A DNA stretch of 20,133 nucleotides, from positions 4,141-24,273 of IMG/VR virus record IMGVR_UViG_3300002514_000246; one strand, written 5' to 3'. The position numbers and the translations under genes are program-made. Origin of the DNA: a virus. The notes under the pieces are model-generated. The model worked only from the letters and a program-made list of their open reading frames with translations. It ran no database searches and was not told the DNA's origin. This document shows, piece after piece, positions 10,588-20,133 of this stretch (its first letter is position 1; the number at the start of each line of letters is the position of its first letter).

Positions 10588-12768
10588 TTACTGAACGGTT
10601 TCGGGCGCCTGTTGACCACCAAACGCCCCTGACTCGACGACAGCATTCTCAGCTTCCGGCCCTGCACCTTTCGTCGCCATCGCCGCCTGTTGAGCCTGTT
10701 GAGCTTGCTGTGCCATAGCTTCTTGATACTGTCCCGCCAACTGCATCAGACCCTGTTGCACTTCCTCCGGGTCTTTCTCAAAATCGGAACTCTTGATGTA
10801 GTCGGTGATGACTTTGAAGTGGACCGGATGAATATCGAACGGTCCCATTTCCACCTGTTCGCCGAGATCGCGGATCTTGTGGATGTTCCGTCGTGCGCGC
10901 TCCGCGTCTACCGTGAACTCGTTCTGGAACCCTGGTATCTCTAGTTTTTCCAGAACCTTCATCCTTACTTCAGGATTGCGCGCATCGCCGAGAATGCCTT
11001 TGTCGTAGGCCATTTGGATCTTCTGGTTCGCTACGGCTTTCGACAGGATCACGCTCGCGTCCATCTCTACGAACACGTCCTCGACACCAGAGAAGTCGGC
11101 GCCCTTGTAGTGGAACTGTTCGGTGATGCTATCCTCGCCGATGATCTTGACGGAGCGTTCCAGTTTCCAATGCTCCTGGGCGAGTCTCAGCTTGTGCTGT
11201 TCGTGTCTGCCGAAGGTGCGTTTGATACGTTTCAGCATCGGGCCGAACCGTTTCGCGGCCTGCTCCAGAAGGATCTCCGTCTGTCCTAGCGTGTCTACAC
11301 CTGACGGCTGTCTGCCGGCAAGGACATCGAGCGTTCCGGTAATATCTTCCAGATCGCGTTGCGCGGTTTCGCGCTCCTGAGTGATCGTGTTTGGCAGAGG
11401 GACGCCCCCGACTGGCTTCGGTTCGACACCGCGCGGGAGGCTGTGCGAGTCCCACCGAATAATCGACGCAGGGCGCCCCTCGATAATGCGGACGCCCGAC
11501 CTGTTCGGGATCATCCATCGAGGGTTCAACATCGTCTTGCGGTTGTGGATAATTCCTGAGTCTATACTGTTGATTCGCTTCTGCAGGGGGATCGCCGATC
11601 GCATAGGTCCGTGGCCCCACAACTCACCAGGGATCTTGCGATACTGCGTCAACTCCCACGGTAGTTCGCCGCCTTTGGTCTTGAGCGTGTCGATCGGACC
11701 TTCGTGGAGCAGGTTATTGCCGATCGTGCAAGTGTATTTGCCTTCTGGGAATTTGTCTGAGGGACGATGCCGGAAGAACTTCAACAGCGCGAACTCTGTC
11801 GCGTCGTAGTAGTTCTGCATCAGTCCGTGGCCGTGCTGATTCGTCAGGTAGGCGCCGAGGCCGAGCAGGGAAATATCTTCGGCGAACACTTTGTCGCGCC
11901 ACTTGGATCCAAACATCGACACGACCTCATCCGGCGTCGTGGCTTCGACCTCGATGGCGTAGTCAACATCCTTCCACCTGGACCGAGGCTGTGGAAAGAA
12001 GCCAAACGGGTTCGTGGCGCGTTCAATGACCTCGCCCTCGTATAGTTCGTCGTAGAGGGGTTGTCCGTTGTCACCCTTCTTGTGTTCGCGCGTAACGTTC
12101 ATCACAGGCTTGCCGTCTTGCATCATCGGCACGTTCTCGCGCTCCAACTCAAAGCCGTTCATCATCTGGCCGGCGAAGTCTGCCGGATGGCGCTCGTTCG
12201 TCATCCTGTTGATCGCGACATCCTCGTATGCCTGTTCCTCGTGGATGTCCATCTGTGGGATCTTGACGAGTTTGCCGGCGCGCGTGTCGTATTGGGAGAA
12301 AAGAATCAGATTGCCGGTGAGGATGCACCAGGCCGCTGCCTCATCGAAACAGTCGGCGGTGTCCATCCCTTGATAGAGCGCGCGGAGGACGCGGGAAGCG
12401 GCACGACCTCGATCGACATCATCAGCTCGTTGCGATGCCGGTCGCGCCTGACCCATCAGATCGCCGCCGGTGAGGATGTCTAAAAGGCGATCGTGGATCT
12501 TTTGGATGTAGTTGGTGACAGGAGTCGGAATCCAATCATCGAGGCCGTGGCGCCGGAACGTCTGCGTCGTGCTATTCCAACTGATCCATTGTTCGTCACC
12601 GAGAAAGAGTAGTGCTTCGCGCCAATGAAATTCGTGCGCTAGTTTCGCCCCGCGCGAATAGGCGAGGATTTCGTCGACGTAGGATACCCACTGTTCCGCA
12701 TCTCCCTTTGTAGGGATAGTCAGATCATGAACGGGCGATCCCTCGATCGAGCTAATATCAAATGCCAT
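10588..12768 (-). CDS. Portal protein
   Basis: A longer frame begins at 12801, but the ATG at 12768 has GAGGAAT seven bases before it and gives a natural N-terminus, so the product is 726 aa. That is the size of portals in P22-like and other short-tailed phages. Recognisable features are an N-terminal helical part (HWREALLFLGDEQWISW), TPVTNYIQKIHDRLLDILTG, the stretch WCILTGNLILFSQYD, and the motif GRQPSGVDTLGQTEILLEQA common to phage portals, followed by long stem helices. The C-terminus is Gln/Ala-rich (MAQQAQQAQQAAMATKG), like the barrel or tail end of large portals. The portal forms the dodecameric DNA channel at one vertex. It is the first gene of the virion operon, behind a hairpin leader. 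Confidence 0.85.
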   Translation of the reverse strand: MAFDISSIEGSPVHDLTIPTKGDAEQWVSYVDEILAYSRGAKLAHEFHWREALLFLGDEQWISWNSTTQTFRRHGLDDWIPTPVTNYIQKIHDRLLDILTGGDLMGQARPASQRADDVDRGRAASRVLRALYQGMDTADCFDEAAAWCILTGNLILFSQYDTRAGKLVKIPQMDIHEEQAYEDVAINRMTNERHPADFAGQMMNGFELERENVPMMQDGKPVMNVTREHKKGDNGQPLYDELYEGEVIERATNPFGFFPQPRSRWKDVDYAIEVEATTPDEVVSMFGSKWRDKVFAEDISLLGLGAYLTNQHGHGLMQNYYDATEFALLKFFRHRPSDKFPEGKYTCTIGNNLLHEGPIDTLKTKGGELPWELTQYRKIPGELWGHGPMRSAIPLQKRINSIDSGIIHNRKTMLNPRWMIPNRSGVRIIEGRPASIIRWDSHSLPRGVEPKPVGGVPLPNTITQERETAQRDLEDITGTLDVLAGRQPSGVDTLGQTEILLEQAAKRFGPMLKRIKRTFGRHEQHKLRLAQEHWKLERSVKIIGEDSITEQFHYKGADFSGVEDVFVEMDASVILSKAVANQKIQMAYDKGILGDARNPEVRMKVLEKLEIPGFQNEFTVDAERARRNIHKIRDLGEQVEMGPFDIHPVHFKVITDYIKSSDFEKDPEEVQQGLMQLAGQYQEAMAQQAQQAQQAAMATKGAGPEAENAVVESGAFGGQQAPETVQ

Positions 12769-12779
12769 CAATTCCTCAT

Positions 12780-12846
12780 AAAAAAAATGACCGATAGGCA
12801 ATCATGTAGGTGGAGGCGACCACCCACACCGATTCGCCTATCGGTC
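12780..12846 (-). terminator. 25-bp hairpin followed by U8, in the leader of the portal gene
   Basis: Outer arms GACCGATAGGC (12789-12799) and GCCTATCGGTC (12836-12846) pair perfectly. Inside, AATC pairs with GATT, and ATGTAGGTGG pairs with CCACCCACAC, leaving a 6-nt loop and two single-base bulges: 25 pairs in all. On the minus-strand RNA the hairpin is followed after one base by eight U (12780-12787), the form of a strong intrinsic terminator. The U run ends only a few bases before the portal Shine-Dalgarno, and a promoter-like sequence lies upstream (12881-12910). It should stop transcripts from the operon before it and also attenuate the portal operon. Confidence 0.75.
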
Positions 12847-12910: not shown

Positions 12911-13578
12911 GTTATCTGCTGTCTGGCAACCTTATTAAGGATGGTATTCACGAACTGAGCAACGAATTCTAATTGGATCTTCTCACCGCCAAGAATCCAC
13001 CCATTTCCCGCGTCATCTGGCGTTATTTGCATCCCTAGAAGGTCCGGAATGCCCTGCTCGTTGTATCCGTCGTAGACATCCCCATCGAGGACGTAAAGAA
13101 TCTGCGGTCCAAGTGGTCCTTTTTCGACCCTAAATGCGAGGCAACGGAAGTCGTTTACGACGAAAATCGAGACTTTCTTGTCTCTGGATTCGGCATTCGC
13201 GCGTTTCAGGACGCATTCATCGAGTTTTAGACGAACGGCCTTCACCTTCTCTGCCGTCTGGCCGCGCCACTTGCGCTTGCGCTTCTCTCCTGGCTCAAAC
13301 TTCGGTCCCTGGTGGACCGTGCCGTCTGACAGTTCCAACGTCGCTTCACCGCCCCCAGGCCTCCAGTGTGAGCGCATCGAGATGTCGGTATCGTCTATGA
13401 TCGAGGTAGTGACGATCGACGTGCCACCAGGGTTGTTGAACGCGCGATTGGACTTGACAGCCGACTCAAAGGTGCGCTCGACCGTTCGTGCCGGCCCTCG
13501 CTCCATCTTGGACTGACCGATGATGTCGTCAGTCTCGACGCTGTTCAGTATGCCGTCATAATCTTCTTCTTCGGGCAT
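12907..13578 (-). CDS. Hypothetical protein, last gene of the packaging operon
   Basis: The 223-aa protein starts at an ATG sharing one base with the stop of the gene before it (TAATG), with GAGGAAGAAG upstream. The N-terminal 80 residues are polar and Ser/Thr/Asp-rich and probably disordered. A Lys/Arg stretch follows (GEKRKRKWRGQTAEKVKAV). The C-terminal part has strands and a helix (KKVSIFVVNDFRCLAFRV, then QILYVLDGDVYDGY, then QLEFVAQFVNTILNKVARQ). The basic middle could bind nucleic acid. I do not recognise the family, and the place between terminase nuclease and portal suggests a role in packaging or head assembly at most. Confidence 0.72.
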   Translation of the reverse strand: MPEEEDYDGILNSVETDDIIGQSKMERGPARTVERTFESAVKSNRAFNNPGGTSIVTTSIIDDTDISMRSHWRPGGGEATLELSDGTVHQGPKFEPGEKRKRKWRGQTAEKVKAVRLKLDECVLKRANAESRDKKVSIFVVNDFRCLAFRVEKGPLGPQILYVLDGDVYDGYNEQGIPDLLGMQITPDDAGNGWILGGEKIQLEFVAQFVNTILNKVARQQIT

Positions 13579-13925
13579 TACGCTTCTTCCTCAACGTCCA
13601 CGTCAGTAGGGAAAATTCCCTCGACAGATTCTGTCGTCGTTTCCCTGCCTCCGAATGGGCCATCATTCACGACAGGTCCGTTCAGTTCTGCTACCCATTG
13701 TCCATCTGGTTGCTTGTAAAATCCTCCTGTGCCGTCTTGCATCGGGATGTAGCCTGGCAGTTCTGGCACCGGCTCCCGATCGAGTTGTCGGATCGAGGCG
13801 TGTTCGACCAGGCCGACGAGTTTGTCGACAAGCTCGCTGTTCTGCTTTCGTAGGCCAATGGCGATGTTACCGATGAACCAGATACAGACGACCGCGAAGG
13901 CCGCGAACACCAGAAGTGTTTCCAT
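13578..13925 (-). CDS. Single-span membrane protein with acidic tail
   Basis: An ATG at 13925 has an excellent AAGGAGG site 6 nt before it; an upstream ATG at 13952, coupled to the previous stop by TGATG, would add nine residues. The 115-aa product has one N-terminal membrane span (residues about 3-25, METLLVFAAFAVVCIWFIG). A short helical, possibly coiled-coil stretch follows (KQNSELVDKLVGLVEHAS), then a Pro/Gly-rich region with GYIPMQDGTGGFYKQPDGQW and an acidic end. Together with the 44-aa membrane protein before it and the lysis genes nearby, it may take part in lysis, for instance as a spanin- or antiholin-like component. There is no lipobox and no direct proof. Confidence 0.7.
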   Translation of the reverse strand: METLLVFAAFAVVCIWFIGNIAIGLRKQNSELVDKLVGLVEHASIRQLDREPVPELPGYIPMQDGTGGFYKQPDGQWVAELNGPVVNDGPFGGRETTTESVEGIFPTDVDVEEEA

Positions 13926-13951
13926 CACTCCCCTCCTTACAAGATCCAACA

Positions 13952-14086
13952 TCAAAGTTCCTTCAAGTCAGGCTTTGGCCAAACCAATTCAAAAATTGAG
14001 TCGAATAAACCTATGCCAGCCCACATCACTGCCAGAATGAGAACTAACGGCACCGTTATCGGAAGACATAAAATTCTCAGGCCCAT
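13952..14086 (-). CDS. 44-aa single-span membrane protein
   Basis: This is a small gene with an ATG at 14086 and AGGTG upstream (spacing 3-4). The product has a basic N-terminus (MGLR) and one long hydrophobic span (about residues 4-27: ILCLPITVPLVLILAVMWAG), then a short polar end (VWPKPDLKEL). Its stop shares bases with an ATG of the following reading frame (TGATG). Two adjacent small membrane proteins after a lysis cassette resemble holin, antiholin or spanin arrangements, but size and one span do not decide the role. Confidence 0.6.
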   Translation of the reverse strand: MGLRILCLPITVPLVLILAVMWAGIGLFDSIFELVWPKPDLKEL

Positions 14087-14159: not shown

Positions 14160-14984
14160 TCAAATCAGTCCTCCCATCGTAGTTGATTCGCGCTCCATCT
14201 TCCTGAGCCGTATCGCCTTGTCCATCAAATCCTCATCCTCATCTTCCGGTTCCTCGTCGCGAATATACGGCTCCGCGAAGTCTGCCATCGACGGGTCGCC
14301 GATGTTCTCTACTGCGCGTGTTTTGAATGCCGGCGCGTGACCGGCCTCACGTAGTTCCTCTGCAATCGGGAAGTAGAGGATGCCCTGGATCGCGAGCATC
14401 CACCCGAAGATCGCATCATCTTTGGCACCTCTGATATGCTCGTATTTGCCACGCTTGTTCCTTTGAAAGACCGACATCTGGTCGAGAATCAGCGACGATC
14501 GGACGTGGTAGAGGTTGTCGCGCATCCCCGTTCGCGCGTCGTTCACTAGCTTGTTGCGAGTGAGCGCGTTGGTGTTCCACCCTAACTTTTCCTTCCGCGT
14601 GTCCGAGATGTCTGCCCTGTAAAACCACTCGTAATGGAGGTTAGGATATTCCAGATTCTTGAGGACTTGAAGCGGCGTAATATCCTTGTTGTTCTCGATG
14701 AGGACGTAGGACCAGTTGTACCATTTCCCGACGAGATAACAGAGTAAACCAAACTCGTCTGGGTCGATGGAGCCGGTGAACTCACAACACTGATTTCCTG
14801 TGTCTGACCGCAGTACGCACAGGGAACTGTCATCACCGTGTTCAAGTCCTTCTGCGACATCGGCTCCGAGAGAATAGGTTTTTCCTGGCTCCGGTCGCTC
14901 CCAAACTTTGAGCAAAATGCGCGCATCGCCTTCGACTCCGAAAAGGGATTCGACATCGTATTCTATTTTGAGGGCTTCAGGCAT
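14160..14984 (-). CDS. Terminase large subunit, nuclease domain as a separate protein
   Basis: The 274-aa protein matches the C-terminal RNase H-like nuclease half of large terminases and lacks any ATPase part. Key features are WERPEPGKTYSLGADVAEG with Asp42 as first metal ligand, followed by HGDDSS; VLIENNKD with Glu97 in the second acidic position; the helix TRNKLVNDARTGMRD; and GAKDDAIFGWMLAIQG with Asp189/Asp190 as the third. In a normal terminase these follow the ATPase domain in one chain and cut concatemeric DNA during packaging. Here the gene overlaps the peptidase gene by 8 nt and has no clear Shine-Dalgarno, suggesting coupling. The Asp/Glu-rich C-terminal extension (EEPEDEDEDL) may contact the ATPase or portal. 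Confidence 0.85.
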   Translation of the reverse strand: MPEALKIEYDVESLFGVEGDARILLKVWERPEPGKTYSLGADVAEGLEHGDDSSLCVLRSDTGNQCCEFTGSIDPDEFGLLCYLVGKWYNWSYVLIENNKDITPLQVLKNLEYPNLHYEWFYRADISDTRKEKLGWNTNALTRNKLVNDARTGMRDNLYHVRSSLILDQMSVFQRNKRGKYEHIRGAKDDAIFGWMLAIQGILYFPIAEELREAGHAPAFKTRAVENIGDPSMADFAEPYIRDEEPEDEDEDLMDKAIRLRKMERESTTMGGLI

Positions 14985-15390
14985 TTTGATAGATCAGCGT
15001 TGCGACACATCCGATGTGCCAGTGTTCGGAATCCTTCCCGCGCCCGACACGGACGAGGGGGATGCCCTGGTTGAGACACAGCCGTTCAAACCTGTTGGCC
15101 GTATCCTTCGTCCACGTCTTGTCTCCGAAGAAGGCTTTGTCGCCGGCACTGATCGCAGAGATGTCTGCCGCCTCACTGTGTTCGTGGAACGGCCCTGGCT
15201 TCGTTATTGCCGTCACACGGATGGGGCGATCGAAGTAACTCAGGGCGATAGCATTCGCCTGTGCTAACCAGATTGATAACGTCGCGTTGAGTTGGTTCGA
15301 TCGCCACAGTTGCAGATCCTTGACGCCCTTGAAGATCATCAGCTCGTAGACACTGCCTGTCGCCTCGTTTCGTTGAATCAGATCAGCCAT
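14977..15390 (-). CDS. M15-type peptidase, candidate endolysin
   Basis: The frame opens at 15441, but the ATG at 15390 has CGGAG 8-9 nt before it and an 8-nt overlap with the previous gene, giving 137 aa. The zinc peptidase signature of the M15 family (D-Ala-D-Ala carboxypeptidase / L-Ala-D-Glu endopeptidase) is present: PGPFHEHSEAADISA supplies the H-x6-D pair (His69, Asp76), and SEHWH supplies Glu122 and His125. The N-terminal helical region (NQLNATLSIWLAQANAIAL) and FFGDKTWTKDTANRFERLCL fit single-domain phage enzymes. It probably cleaves peptide bridges of the host cell wall at lysis. There is no signal peptide, so it would rely on a holin; a membrane protein is encoded just before it. 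Confidence 0.82.
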   Translation of the reverse strand: MADLIQRNEATGSVYELMIFKGVKDLQLWRSNQLNATLSIWLAQANAIALSYFDRPIRVTAITKPGPFHEHSEAADISAISAGDKAFFGDKTWTKDTANRFERLCLNQGIPLVRVGRGKDSEHWHIGCVATLIYQNA

Positions 15391-15682
15391 ACCACGCTCC
15401 GTATTTGCCGGCGATGAGTACGCCGAGTCTGAAGAACGCAAGCGAGGCTACGCCGGCAATAGCCGTGACGATCGCCAGACCCTTCCTTGTGAATACGCTC
15501 GGTCGAGGGACGAGCCACCCGATGATTGCTACATAGAAGTAGAAGTATCGTGTGACGATGTGCCAGAGGTCGTGCTTGGTTCCGGGGTGAATAATCGGGT
15601 CGCCCCACGTTGCATCCCCATAGCCTTTGGCGATCGACATCACGCAGATCGCGAGCAGTGAGCAGTATAGATCCCTCAACAT
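15383..15682 (-). CDS. Small multi-span membrane protein, candidate holin
   Basis: The ATG at 15682 overlaps the terminase ATPase stop (TGATG), with GAGG upstream; the product is 99 aa. Three hydrophobic stretches are visible: about residues 4-20 (LYCSLLAICVMSIA), 39-59 (VTRYFYFYVAIIGWLVP) and 68-93 (LAIVTAIAGVASLAFFRLG). Size, number of spans and the peptidase gene straight downstream fit a holin, which makes the membrane lesion that releases the endolysin. Holins share little sequence, so this rests on topology and context. Another type of phage membrane protein remains possible. Confidence 0.7.
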   Translation of the reverse strand: MLRDLYCSLLAICVMSIAKGYGDATWGDPIIHPGTKHDLWHIVTRYFYFYVAIIGWLVPRPSVFTRKGLAIVTAIAGVASLAFFRLGVLIAGKYGAWYG

Positions 15683-16782
15683 CACGCCGCCTCGTTGAAG
15701 ATGATGCGCTTCCGTGTTTCGTAGTGATGCTGCGTAGCCGCGCGCGCGAAGTATTCTGCGTCTGGCTCGATCTCTGCCTCGTATTCTTGCTCGTCTAGGA
15801 AACCGAGCGTTGGGTCCACCATGTGAACCTCCCTCTGTTCCTTGATAAGATCCATCGCGAAAGCCAATCGGATACCCGATGGCTGAAATAGACCGTATGT
15901 ACGCGTATCACGGCTGTCCTCGTCATACGAGGCGATGATTCTCGTTTTTTCTTCTTCGGGGATGATCCAGTCTGGAACGTCGAGAAGTGTCCAGAAGTGA
16001 AAGCGCAAATCTGGAATTTCCGCACGACGTGTGTAGAGACTTGGATGAATCCAAGAGATGCCAACACTCTCACGGTATATAGGCGTAAACGACCGAATGA
16101 TTTCACCTGGTGGTCCGCCCACACCGGCAGTCCTCGCAACACATTCGTCGTCCACGTCCTTTGGCTGTTCTTCGTCCAGGTGGACGATCTCTTGCTTGGT
16201 TCCCTGAAACGCTGCGGCTCCCTGACTTGAATACCTAAAACGGATGACAGAATTGAACGGTGGCTTAAATACGATGACGTTATTTTTCCATCCACGCTCA
16301 ACCGTGTAGTCGCAAGAATCCGTGAGTAGATACTCCGGACAAAGTTCGTGATACTTCGCTTGAACGATTTCAATGGATGTGTCCTCGGTGTCAGAGACAG
16401 TCCAGACGTTCACTGGCGGTAGGAAGCGTTCGCTCGCTTGCTTGGTGACGGGATTCATCCCGATGCATCCGGAGATCACTTCTGCGGCTGACGAGTAGGT
16501 CTTGGCGCAACGGTTTCCGGTGACGACGATGCGTTGCTTGGATGTGTCCAGGTGGAACTTCAGGGGCGAGGATTTGATGTCGCCGTTGGGTAGGGCGCCT
16601 TCGGGACAGTCGAAGGGCATATAGTTGTAGATGGGATCTGCCGCGACGTGATCCATGTAGTATCGGAAGTTGGGGATGGTGCGTTCGGCTCGTTCGGAAA
16701 GCTCGTTCGCCTCATTCGGATACTTCTGAATCATAAAGCTCAACATGGTCACGGCTGACCATATATCGCCTATGCTCGCCAT
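15682..16782 (-). CDS. Terminase large subunit, ATPase domain as a separate protein
   Basis: The 366-aa protein has the motor half of a large terminase. Walker A is VVTGNRCAKTYSSA (Gly89 to Thr95; Lys94 and Thr95 present, with Ala93 where Gly is usual). Walker B is EIVHLDEEQ (Asp203, catalytic Glu204). The coupling motif is RSFTPIYRES (about 230-239). An adenine-binding Gln-like N-terminal region precedes it. The chain ends at about the point where the linker to the nuclease normally begins; no RNase H motifs follow. The nuclease is encoded separately at 14160-14984. It powers DNA translocation into the head at the portal. The start shares one base with the stop of the 83-aa gene. Confidence 0.87.
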   Translation of the reverse strand: MASIGDIWSAVTMLSFMIQKYPNEANELSERAERTIPNFRYYMDHVAADPIYNYMPFDCPEGALPNGDIKSSPLKFHLDTSKQRIVVTGNRCAKTYSSAAEVISGCIGMNPVTKQASERFLPPVNVWTVSDTEDTSIEIVQAKYHELCPEYLLTDSCDYTVERGWKNNVIVFKPPFNSVIRFRYSSQGAAAFQGTKQEIVHLDEEQPKDVDDECVARTAGVGGPPGEIIRSFTPIYRESVGISWIHPSLYTRRAEIPDLRFHFWTLLDVPDWIIPEEEKTRIIASYDEDSRDTRTYGLFQPSGIRLAFAMDLIKEQREVHMVDPTLGFLDEQEYEAEIEPDAEYFARAATQHHYETRKRIIFNEAA

Positions 16783-18543: not shown

Positions 18544-18756
18544 TCAACCCCGCGCATCAATGATCGGCGACATACACAACTTCCGCTCGATCTCGCGACA
18601 GTTTTCCTCGATGACTTTACTCCACGACAGATCGCCGTTCTTCATCTGGTGGATCTCAAACAGACTGAGCGAGATACGAACGTCGCAGTGATACTCAGCC
18701 TTGCACCCCGTCAATCGCCAAGACTTCCCATTGAAGTCATAAATCTCAACACTCAT
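18544..18756 (-). CDS. Hypothetical 70-aa protein after the HNH gene
   Basis: The ATG at 18756 overlaps the HNH stop by four bases (ATGA), a classical coupled start; the longer frame from 18798 is less likely. The product has a strand-rich first half (SVEIYDFNGKSWRLTG, then CDVRISLSLFEIHQM) and a helical second half (WSKVIEENCREIERKL) with three Cys. No known family is recognised. It is the last gene before the terminator at 18247-18278. Confidence 0.68.
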   Translation of the reverse strand: MSVEIYDFNGKSWRLTGCKAEYHCDVRISLSLFEIHQMKNGDLSWSKVIEENCREIERKLCMSPIIDARG

Positions 18757-19148
18757 CGACGATGCCCCCTGTGATACGAACCGTGACAACGATGACACAA
18801 CACTGTGACATCAGTTGCCATCGACTCATCAAACCAATGACGATAATTACGATGATGAACTACCAACTTCTTAACCTTCATCTCCCAATCAGAAGTCCTA
18901 CCCGCCTCGCACAAAACGCACGAACCAAAATACTGAATCGCCGACTTCTTCAGAGACTTGAACCACTCCGTCGCCTCATACTTCTTCCGATCCCGCGCTT
19001 CCGGCTTGTTCTTCGACGCCAACAGCCTTAGAACCACCGCCTGGTCCAGACCCTGCGACAAGCCCTCCACGAAGGGGTCCTTCTCCGGCCTCCGGAACTC
19101 CGGATCGTCCAACTTCACCGTCCTCGGCCTCCCCTTCCGACGATTCAT
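18753..19148 (-). CDS. HNH endonuclease
   Basis: The frame opens at 19223, but the ATG at 19148 has AAAGGAG 6 nt before it, giving 131 aa. The C-terminal half shows a zinc-ribbon HNH fold: CVLC (Cys77, Cys80), then KKLVVHHRNYRHW with His98, His99 and Asn101, then VTVLCHRCHGSYH with Cys118, Cys121, His122 and His126. The N-terminus is basic (MNRRKGRPR). HNH enzymes near terminase genes are known in several phages to support packaging (HK97 gp74 type); others are homing enzymes. Here it lies about 1.2 kb before the packaging operon, in a separate transcript, so both roles remain open. Confidence 0.82.
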   Translation of the reverse strand: MNRRKGRPRTVKLDDPEFRRPEKDPFVEGLSQGLDQAVVLRLLASKNKPEARDRKKYEATEWFKSLKKSAIQYFGSCVLCEAGRTSDWEMKVKKLVVHHRNYRHWFDESMATDVTVLCHRCHGSYHRGHRR

Positions 19149-19317
19149 AGAATCTCCTTTCCAAAAACTCGACCCTGCCGTGAAGCTGTACCAACATTTC
19201 CGACAACTCCGCCATACCCTCAAAACAGAAAACGATCAACGGCTCCGTTTTCAACATCCGAATCTGCCCCTTCGTTTCGGCCAACTCCCGCTGAAACTTC
19301 TGAATCACCTCGACCAT
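18976..19317 (-). CDS. Hypothetical helical protein, overlapping both neighbours
   Basis: The ATG at 19317 has GAGGGAG seven bases upstream. The first 55 of 113 residues look like a coiled coil (VEVIQKFQRELAETKGQIRM, then ELSEMLVQLHGRVEFLERRF). The rest (GEAEDGEVGRSGVPEAGEG and on) is Gly/Glu-rich and lies inside the HNH gene in another frame, so it may be a passive extension. It overlaps the gene before by 98 nt and the HNH gene by 173 nt. It fills the otherwise empty 71 nt between them, which with the Shine-Dalgarno supports a real gene. Function unknown. Confidence 0.55.
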   Translation of the reverse strand: MVEVIQKFQRELAETKGQIRMLKTEPLIVFCFEGMAELSEMLVQLHGRVEFLERRFYESSEGEAEDGEVGRSGVPEAGEGPLRGGLVAGSGPGGGSKAVGVEEQAGSAGSEEV

Positions 19318-20049: not shown

Positions 20050-20133
20050 AGTCTCCCTTCCCCTCCCCCCGGGGGCCGCGCCGTCGCGTGGGTGGGGGGG
20101 GGGTTCGCGCTCCTGACGTGGACCAGGGTCTGC
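20050..20133. other. Low-complexity G/C-tract region at window end
   Basis: Contains a CCCCCCGGGGG run and a run of ten G. No gene start is visible. Such homopolymers are prone to sequencing or assembly error. Confidence 0.5.

Follow-up and report, generated by a model that had tools for sequence, protein, structure and literature searches.

In the textbook picture a large terminase is a single chain of two domains, and the way in which such a chain switches between its motor and its nuclease activity is still under debate. The stretch analyzed here (the window) is 20,133 nucleotides of viral DNA, positions 4,141-24,273 of the 24.3-kb IMG/VR record IMGVR_UViG_3300002514_000246, in which the motor and the cutter of a large terminase (TerL) appear to be encoded by two separate genes. 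Large terminases in two open reading frames (ORFs) and suspected transfer of TerL domains are both already in print. In the Arthrobacter cluster AY phages, the large terminase is described as lying across two ORFs (BlueShadow genes 2 and 3; PMC12820723). By that description, cluster AY resembles the window in having ATPase and nuclease domains in separate ORFs, and BlueShadow differs from it in that the two terminase genes are consecutively numbered. One family ATPase from our dataset matched eight Arthrobacter records, which include Brad and Jasmine (Jasminevirus, with a one-chain TerL) and among which no AY phage was identified. For Xanthomonas phage PBR31, individual TerL domains are suspected by the authors to have been transferred horizontally, within a TerL that, unlike the window pair, is described as a two-domain protein (PMC10975493).

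A further two-ORF case is Podoviridae sp. ctLwi270 (MW202554; L015:3669-6206), where two ORFs, both annotated as terminase large subunit, stand just before the portal gene and enclose a 62-aa ORF. It differs from the window in belonging to another TerL type (nuclease phrog_38), and its ATPase ORF looks intein-bearing. As a separate observation, the nuclease half of the TerL at L007:3869-5740 (MW202478, ctRVW222) also appears to bear an intein. The literature searched, which had most subscription papers outside its coverage, yielded no description of a terminase made of two proteins with mixed ancestry, and the accessible parts of PMC7824862, PMC7412058, PMC9004378, PMC10580990, PMC9915841 and PMC5468394 make no mention of a two-gene terminase.

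We consider it likely that the two window genes encode a two-protein terminase, a motor and a cutter that would act in trans and are nearest to different TerL lineages, in an arrangement that is probably ancestral and was re-fused once. The predicted proteins and their active-site residues are listed in window coordinates.

15682..16782, minus strand: terminase ATPase (motor), 366 aa, without a nuclease domain
16498..16518, minus strand: Walker A, G89-N-R-C-A-K-T95
16168..16185, minus strand: end of Walker B and catalytic glutamate, V200-H-L-D-E-E205; Walker B ends at D203-E204
14160..14984, minus strand: terminase nuclease (cutter), 274 aa, without an ATPase domain
14859..14861, minus strand: catalytic Asp D42, kept in 33/33 family rows
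14694..14696, minus strand: catalytic Glu E97, kept in 33/33 family rows
14415..14420, minus strand: catalytic Asp pair D189-D190, each kept in 33/33 family rows

An earlier sequence-only reading of the window had described the larger protein as carrying Walker A, Walker B and a coupling motif with no nuclease, and the smaller as carrying all three acidic nuclease sites with no ATPase. Both descriptions hold: K94, D203, E204 and the coupling motif T233-P234 are present in the former, and D42, E97 and D189/D190 in the latter. An AlphaFold2 model of the ATPase (pLDDT 86.9) was compared with the PDB using Foldseek, and the top 30 rows were all TerL proteins (P74-26, D6E, Sf6 and T4), with P74-26 (4znl) at E 5e-9. 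For the nuclease model (pLDDT 81.2), all 14 rows at E ≤0.001 were TerL nucleases (T4 gp17, 1.5e-10; G20c nuclease, 9e-10; and RB49). These models, which point to no other family, identify the 366-aa product as a TerL ATPase and the 274-aa product as a TerL nuclease of RNase H-like fold. Profile searches place the nuclease likewise: it has no Pfam match but is found in PHROGs by phrog_38407 (2e-21) and phrog_24361 ‘terminase’ (7e-12), and a profile of its family matches the RB49 gp17 nuclease at 4e-15. The other 32 clusters of the family contain orthologs of the window ATPase, some of them truncated where a contig ends. K94 is kept in all 32 family rows having that position, E204 in 33/33 and D203 in 29/33. 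The Walker B Asp is replaced by Asn in 4/33 family ATPases (L107:2569-3600 and relatives), with the catalytic Glu retained.

The four ORFs of positions 14160-16782 are all intact on the minus strand where the sequence-only reading placed them. Counted from ATG starts, their junctions overlap by 1 nt (TGATG), 8 nt and again 8 nt, within the 1-8 nt that it gave. The nuclease frame is closed 9 nt ahead of its start. A frameshift, intron or intein split of the window gene was considered and rejected because two intact ORFs intervene (no Rfam or intein search of the window was run). A second record, IMGVR_UViG_3300025131_000093 (G001; 42,850 bp), contains the whole window at 100% identity, although the two may share reads. 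A chimeric assembly is unlikely, since this record holds the whole window and related contigs share the two-gene layout. The ends of the 42.85-kb record carry a 181-bp repeat (179/181 identical, two mismatches), within which window positions 20084-20133 fall; because its ends overlap in this way, the record is taken as a near-complete genome. For comparison, the LUZ24 record annotates a 184-bp terminal repeat_region. Six profiles run on the 42.85-kb record revealed no second terminase: Terminase_6N and the family nuclease profile each matched one place, in each case the known gene, and TerL_ATPase, GpA_ATPase, Terminase_3 and phrog_2 matched nowhere.

The layout recurs widely among uncultivated viruses. 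Pattern scans of IMG/VR, of which five of the eight viral scans kept the best 80 loci only, yielded 60 viral loci (56 contigs, counted by name) that were tested for both domains and have both (a six-row nuclease alignment was too divergent for scanning). Grouping these loci at 95% identity gives 34 clusters, of which 31, including the window and the deep branch L138, encode ATPase and nuclease in separate ORFs, with representatives of 334-431 aa for the ATPase and 236-308 aa for the nuclease. L138:1022-3512 encodes in turn an ATPase ORF with an NQLGKT Walker A, a 114-aa ORF and a 291-aa nuclease. L316 and L317, found later, are also two-gene and stand outside the 34-cluster counts. A fused single chain is present in the remaining three clusters, L187, L188 and L189 (L189 is cut at its 5' end). 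These are the nearest relatives of the window, their ATPases being 50-60% identical to its own, and the L187 chain matches the TerL profile phrog_2 across both domains. A pattern scan for the family in bacterial and archaeal genomes gave 58 stretches, none of which was confirmed. Among named phages, 19 of the tblastn-matched records were examined, and the match is one ORF of 468-623 aa in 17/17 annotated records, three of them reached via the portal (two records have no annotation at the match; Hydrogenobaculum gave a weak match only, at E 0.05).

With one locus taken per cluster, 13/31 two-gene clusters have a nuclease frame that closes ahead of the ATPase stop, and therefore no single frameshift could join the proteins there. 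The junction has no room for another gene (≤18 nt) in 20/31 clusters and spans 193-3,232 nt in the other 11; the two genes lie within 0.7 kb of each other in all but L228 (3.2 kb). Junction ORFs encode about 90 aa in L107 and L229 and 116 aa in L208, and at L228:7062-10295 an RGP-type glycosyltransferase(-like) gene is found between ATPase and nuclease. The 163- and 186-aa junction proteins of L226 and L231 may be small terminases, an assignment that neither Pfam nor PHROGs supports. Distances among the ATPases correlate closely with those among the nucleases (Mantel r 0.92, reached by 0/999 permutations), as those of any two genes of one genome would. Related contigs share the two-gene layout of the window, and in one cluster an M15 gene stands between the halves. 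Separately, in 7/80 ATPase-lineage loci (L041, L045, L068, L085, L102, L105 and L106) the ATPase domain of TerL is itself divided between two ORFs, one of 195-300 aa and one of 238-300 aa; no Rfam intron was found at this split in six of the seven (all but L105).

The two halves have different kin. Named relatives of the ATPase are the single-chain TerLs of LUZ24, SCYZ1, EBPR podovirus 1 and Jasmine/Brad, whose own nucleases the family nuclease profile does not recognize. Named relatives of the nuclease are Vibrio phage 252E42.2 (37% identity over 189 aa), T4-like phages, where the gp17 nuclease domain of T4/RB49 matches by fold and profile, and others; these too are single chains, and the ATPases of this type are unmatched by the family ATPase profile. 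Two sets of full-length single chains were assembled from two scans, G1 (47 chains) chosen by ATPase similarity and G2 (43 chains) by nuclease similarity. Each was drawn from the ORFs of 80 loci; those truncated at a contig end or outside 440-620 aa (G1) or 470-640 aa (G2) were dropped, and removal of chains more than 90% identical reduced G1 from 66 to 47 and G2 from 58 to 43. The family ATPase profile matches 47/47 of G1 and 0/43 of G2, and the family nuclease profile 0/47 of G1 and 43/43 of G2.

As a control, ATPase and nuclease profiles were built from 12 chains of one lineage and tested on the remaining chains. The remainder of the same lineage was matched by both domains (35/35 twice, 31/31 twice) and the other lineage hardly at all (0/43, 2/43, 0/47 and 0/47). 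All 60 family loci are matched by the G1 ATPase profile and all 60 by the G2 nuclease profile, and none by the other two. In hhalign, the family nuclease aligns with G2 nucleases at probability 100 (E 6e-59) and with G1 nucleases at probability 2.7. Since neither profile recognizes the other's relatives, the window and its family apparently possess a two-protein terminase of mixed ancestry, with an ATPase of LUZ24/Jasmine type and a nuclease of Vibrio 252E42.2/T4 type. One of 45 further loci examined, L325:5824-7395, encodes a 523-aa single-chain TerL with a G1-type ATPase and a G2-type nuclease; it is placed outside the two-gene family in both trees and represents an independent domain swap inside a single chain.

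The direction of change was read from a concatenated tree with 33 pairs, which, like the ATPase trees, does not include L138. The fused trio forms one clade (100/98), and trio plus window stand apart (100/100) from the 29 two-gene clusters. Parsimony on this tree counts one state change from a two-gene ancestor and two from a fused ancestor, which favors two-gene ancestry and makes it likely, in our estimate, that the two-gene state is ancestral in this phage clade. ‘Split’, the term of the sequence-only reading, is probably the wrong word, because 31/34 clusters are two-gene and the two-gene ancestor is cheaper; the halves moreover belong to different TerL lineages. Simple fission, in which a fused gene was broken by insertion in the window lineage and separately in the large two-gene clade, would account for the fact that the nearest relatives are fused, and one ATPase tree puts the window inside the fused trio (89/75). 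It needs the extra change, the concatenated tree and another ATPase tree (90/69) have the window outside the trio, and an AU test disfavors joining the window with L188 and L189 (p 0.028). The nuclease clade has L138 as its deepest branch, and L138 too is two-gene, with a G1-type ATPase. We regard simple fission as unlikely.

Several points weigh against a two-protein terminase of mixed and ancestral origin. The two-gene ancestor wins by no more than one step, and the window, being a long branch, changes place among single-domain trees, the nuclease tree setting it basal to the other 32 (80/56) and one ATPase tree, as noted, within the trio. Terminase_6N scores 20.1 bits on the window ATPase against a cut-off of 22 that its relatives L205 (31.2) and L187 (23.7) pass; the family ATPase profile found no terminase among PDB sequences; and Walker A position 93 is Ala in the window, Gly in 29/32 family rows having the position and Ser in L187 and L188. 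The zero matches of phrog_2 in the 42.85-kb record come from an insensitive search, because the known pair was missed too. In 18/31 two-gene clusters the nuclease frame is open for 10-583 nt into the ATPase ORF, where a frameshift would be possible. Because the chains of G1 and G2 were selected for resembling one of the halves, the positive counts are expected, and it is the zeros that speak for mixed ancestry. The family ATPase aligns with G2 ATPases in hhalign at probability 50 (E 2e-4), and in L109 the ATPase and the nuclease protein are each matched by the broad profile phrog_2, in different parts of it, so the two lineages may be parts of one continuum. A related concern is that the mixed ancestry is illusory, the native nuclease having evolved so fast that kinship with its own lineage is no longer recognized. 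This was offered as an alternative for PBR31 by its authors (PMC10975493). The family nuclease nevertheless shows a positive and strong resemblance to the other lineage, in the hhalign comparison with G2 and in the RB49 match, and we hold fast evolution to be quite improbable. Finally, we infer rather than observe the physical interaction of ATPase and nuclease, and an HNH endonuclease gene lies upstream. The smaller protein might accordingly be an accessory TerL-derived nuclease, with the ATPase using another nuclease or cutting without it. This is equally improbable to us: the catalytic residues are kept in 33/33 rows, the partner gene is near in every two-gene cluster but L228, the two are fused in three sisters, and the family nuclease profile matches one place only in the 42.85-kb record. 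An assembly artefact or decaying genes would fit data that are all metagenomic, with two identical records that may share reads, and can hardly be credited when the layout recurs in 30 other clusters, the ORFs are intact and the active sites are conserved.

A motor and a cutter made as two proteins is the reading we judge most likely, the TerL folds being separate and no other terminase being found. The data show the folds, the conserved active sites, co-inheritance and no other terminase in a record whose ends overlap. Assembly of the two proteins in trans, through a docking surface, is probable. The motor, with its TerL ATPase fold, would form a ring on the portal and pump DNA, and the nuclease, with its RNase H-like fold, would join it in trans for the initial and the final cut. 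Separate genes would allow motor and cutter to be made in different amounts. The two-gene form would be ancestral and re-fused once in the nearest sisters of the window, and other genes would have settled at the junction in several lines. In the window, the genes at the junction encode a small membrane protein and a putative peptidase.

15383..15685, minus strand: small membrane protein, 99-100 aa, holin-like by position only (hydropathy)
14977..15390, minus strand: putative zinc peptidase, M15-like by motif only, 137 aa from the ATG at 15390

The sequence-only reading had taken these for a three-span membrane protein and an M15 peptidase, and saw in them lysis genes tied to packaging genes. 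A membrane protein is borne out, although not its three spans: there are two clear hydrophobic segments and a middle one, and since the latter is weaker the protein may span the membrane two or three times. The 137-aa protein has the motif H..S.A.D with HWH (residues 86-93 and 140-142 of the 154-aa ORF), and H..[GS].A.D with H.H is what we take to be the M15 zinc-site motif. Support for the M15 assignment ends there. Neither intervening protein has a significant family match in Pfam, PHROGs or NCBIfam, and the 137-aa protein has no phage tblastn match at E up to 1, no peptidase match among PDB sequences, and an hhalign probability of 0.5 against the M15 set of the family, in which common ancestry was not found. 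Because M15 identity is unconfirmed, lysis genes between the halves of the window terminase are a guess.

Nor is a lysis-packaging gene link of this kind new. An M15 (6) or DUF5675 (15) gene, the latter a Pfam family of unknown function, lies near the terminase in 21/34 clusters (one query each, E up to 1e-3; some other loci are too short upstream to judge), and it abuts or overlaps the ATPase start in 15 of those 21. An M15_3 endolysin is found at the junction in L206 and L207 (Pfam 3.7e-12; phrog_894 endolysin 1.5e-21). LUZ24 and SCYZ1 have the order terS-lysozyme-terL-portal, with the lysozyme gene abutting terL.

The flanking genes of the window are as follows.

10588..12801, minus strand: portal protein (phrog_332 head-tail adaptor, phrog_156 portal; tblastn to phage portals)
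12907..13578, minus strand: protein of 223 aa, encoded between the terminase and portal genes, where relatives have a positional counterpart of ~170-200 aa
13578..13955, minus strand: small single-span membrane protein after the terminase (hydropathy; gene order in L187, L188 and L107)
18753-19223: gene for an HNH endonuclease (phrog_119, 2e-6), upstream of the terminase pair

Positional counterparts of the 13578..13955 protein are present in fused and two-gene relatives alike. Neither this protein nor the 223-aa protein gave a phmmer sequence match to its counterparts.

We give even odds to the wider picture of a clade of uncultivated podovirus-like phages with a chimeric two-protein terminase, ancestral and re-fused once, whose modules are exchangeable, separately dosed and joined only by a protein interface. 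A natural family of separate motor and cutter with fused sisters would mean that the two activities can be dosed, removed and swapped apart from each other. Phage taxonomy often relies on TerL trees, and these may blend two histories, because the kin of the ATPase here are not those of the nuclease and a swap arose independently in L325.

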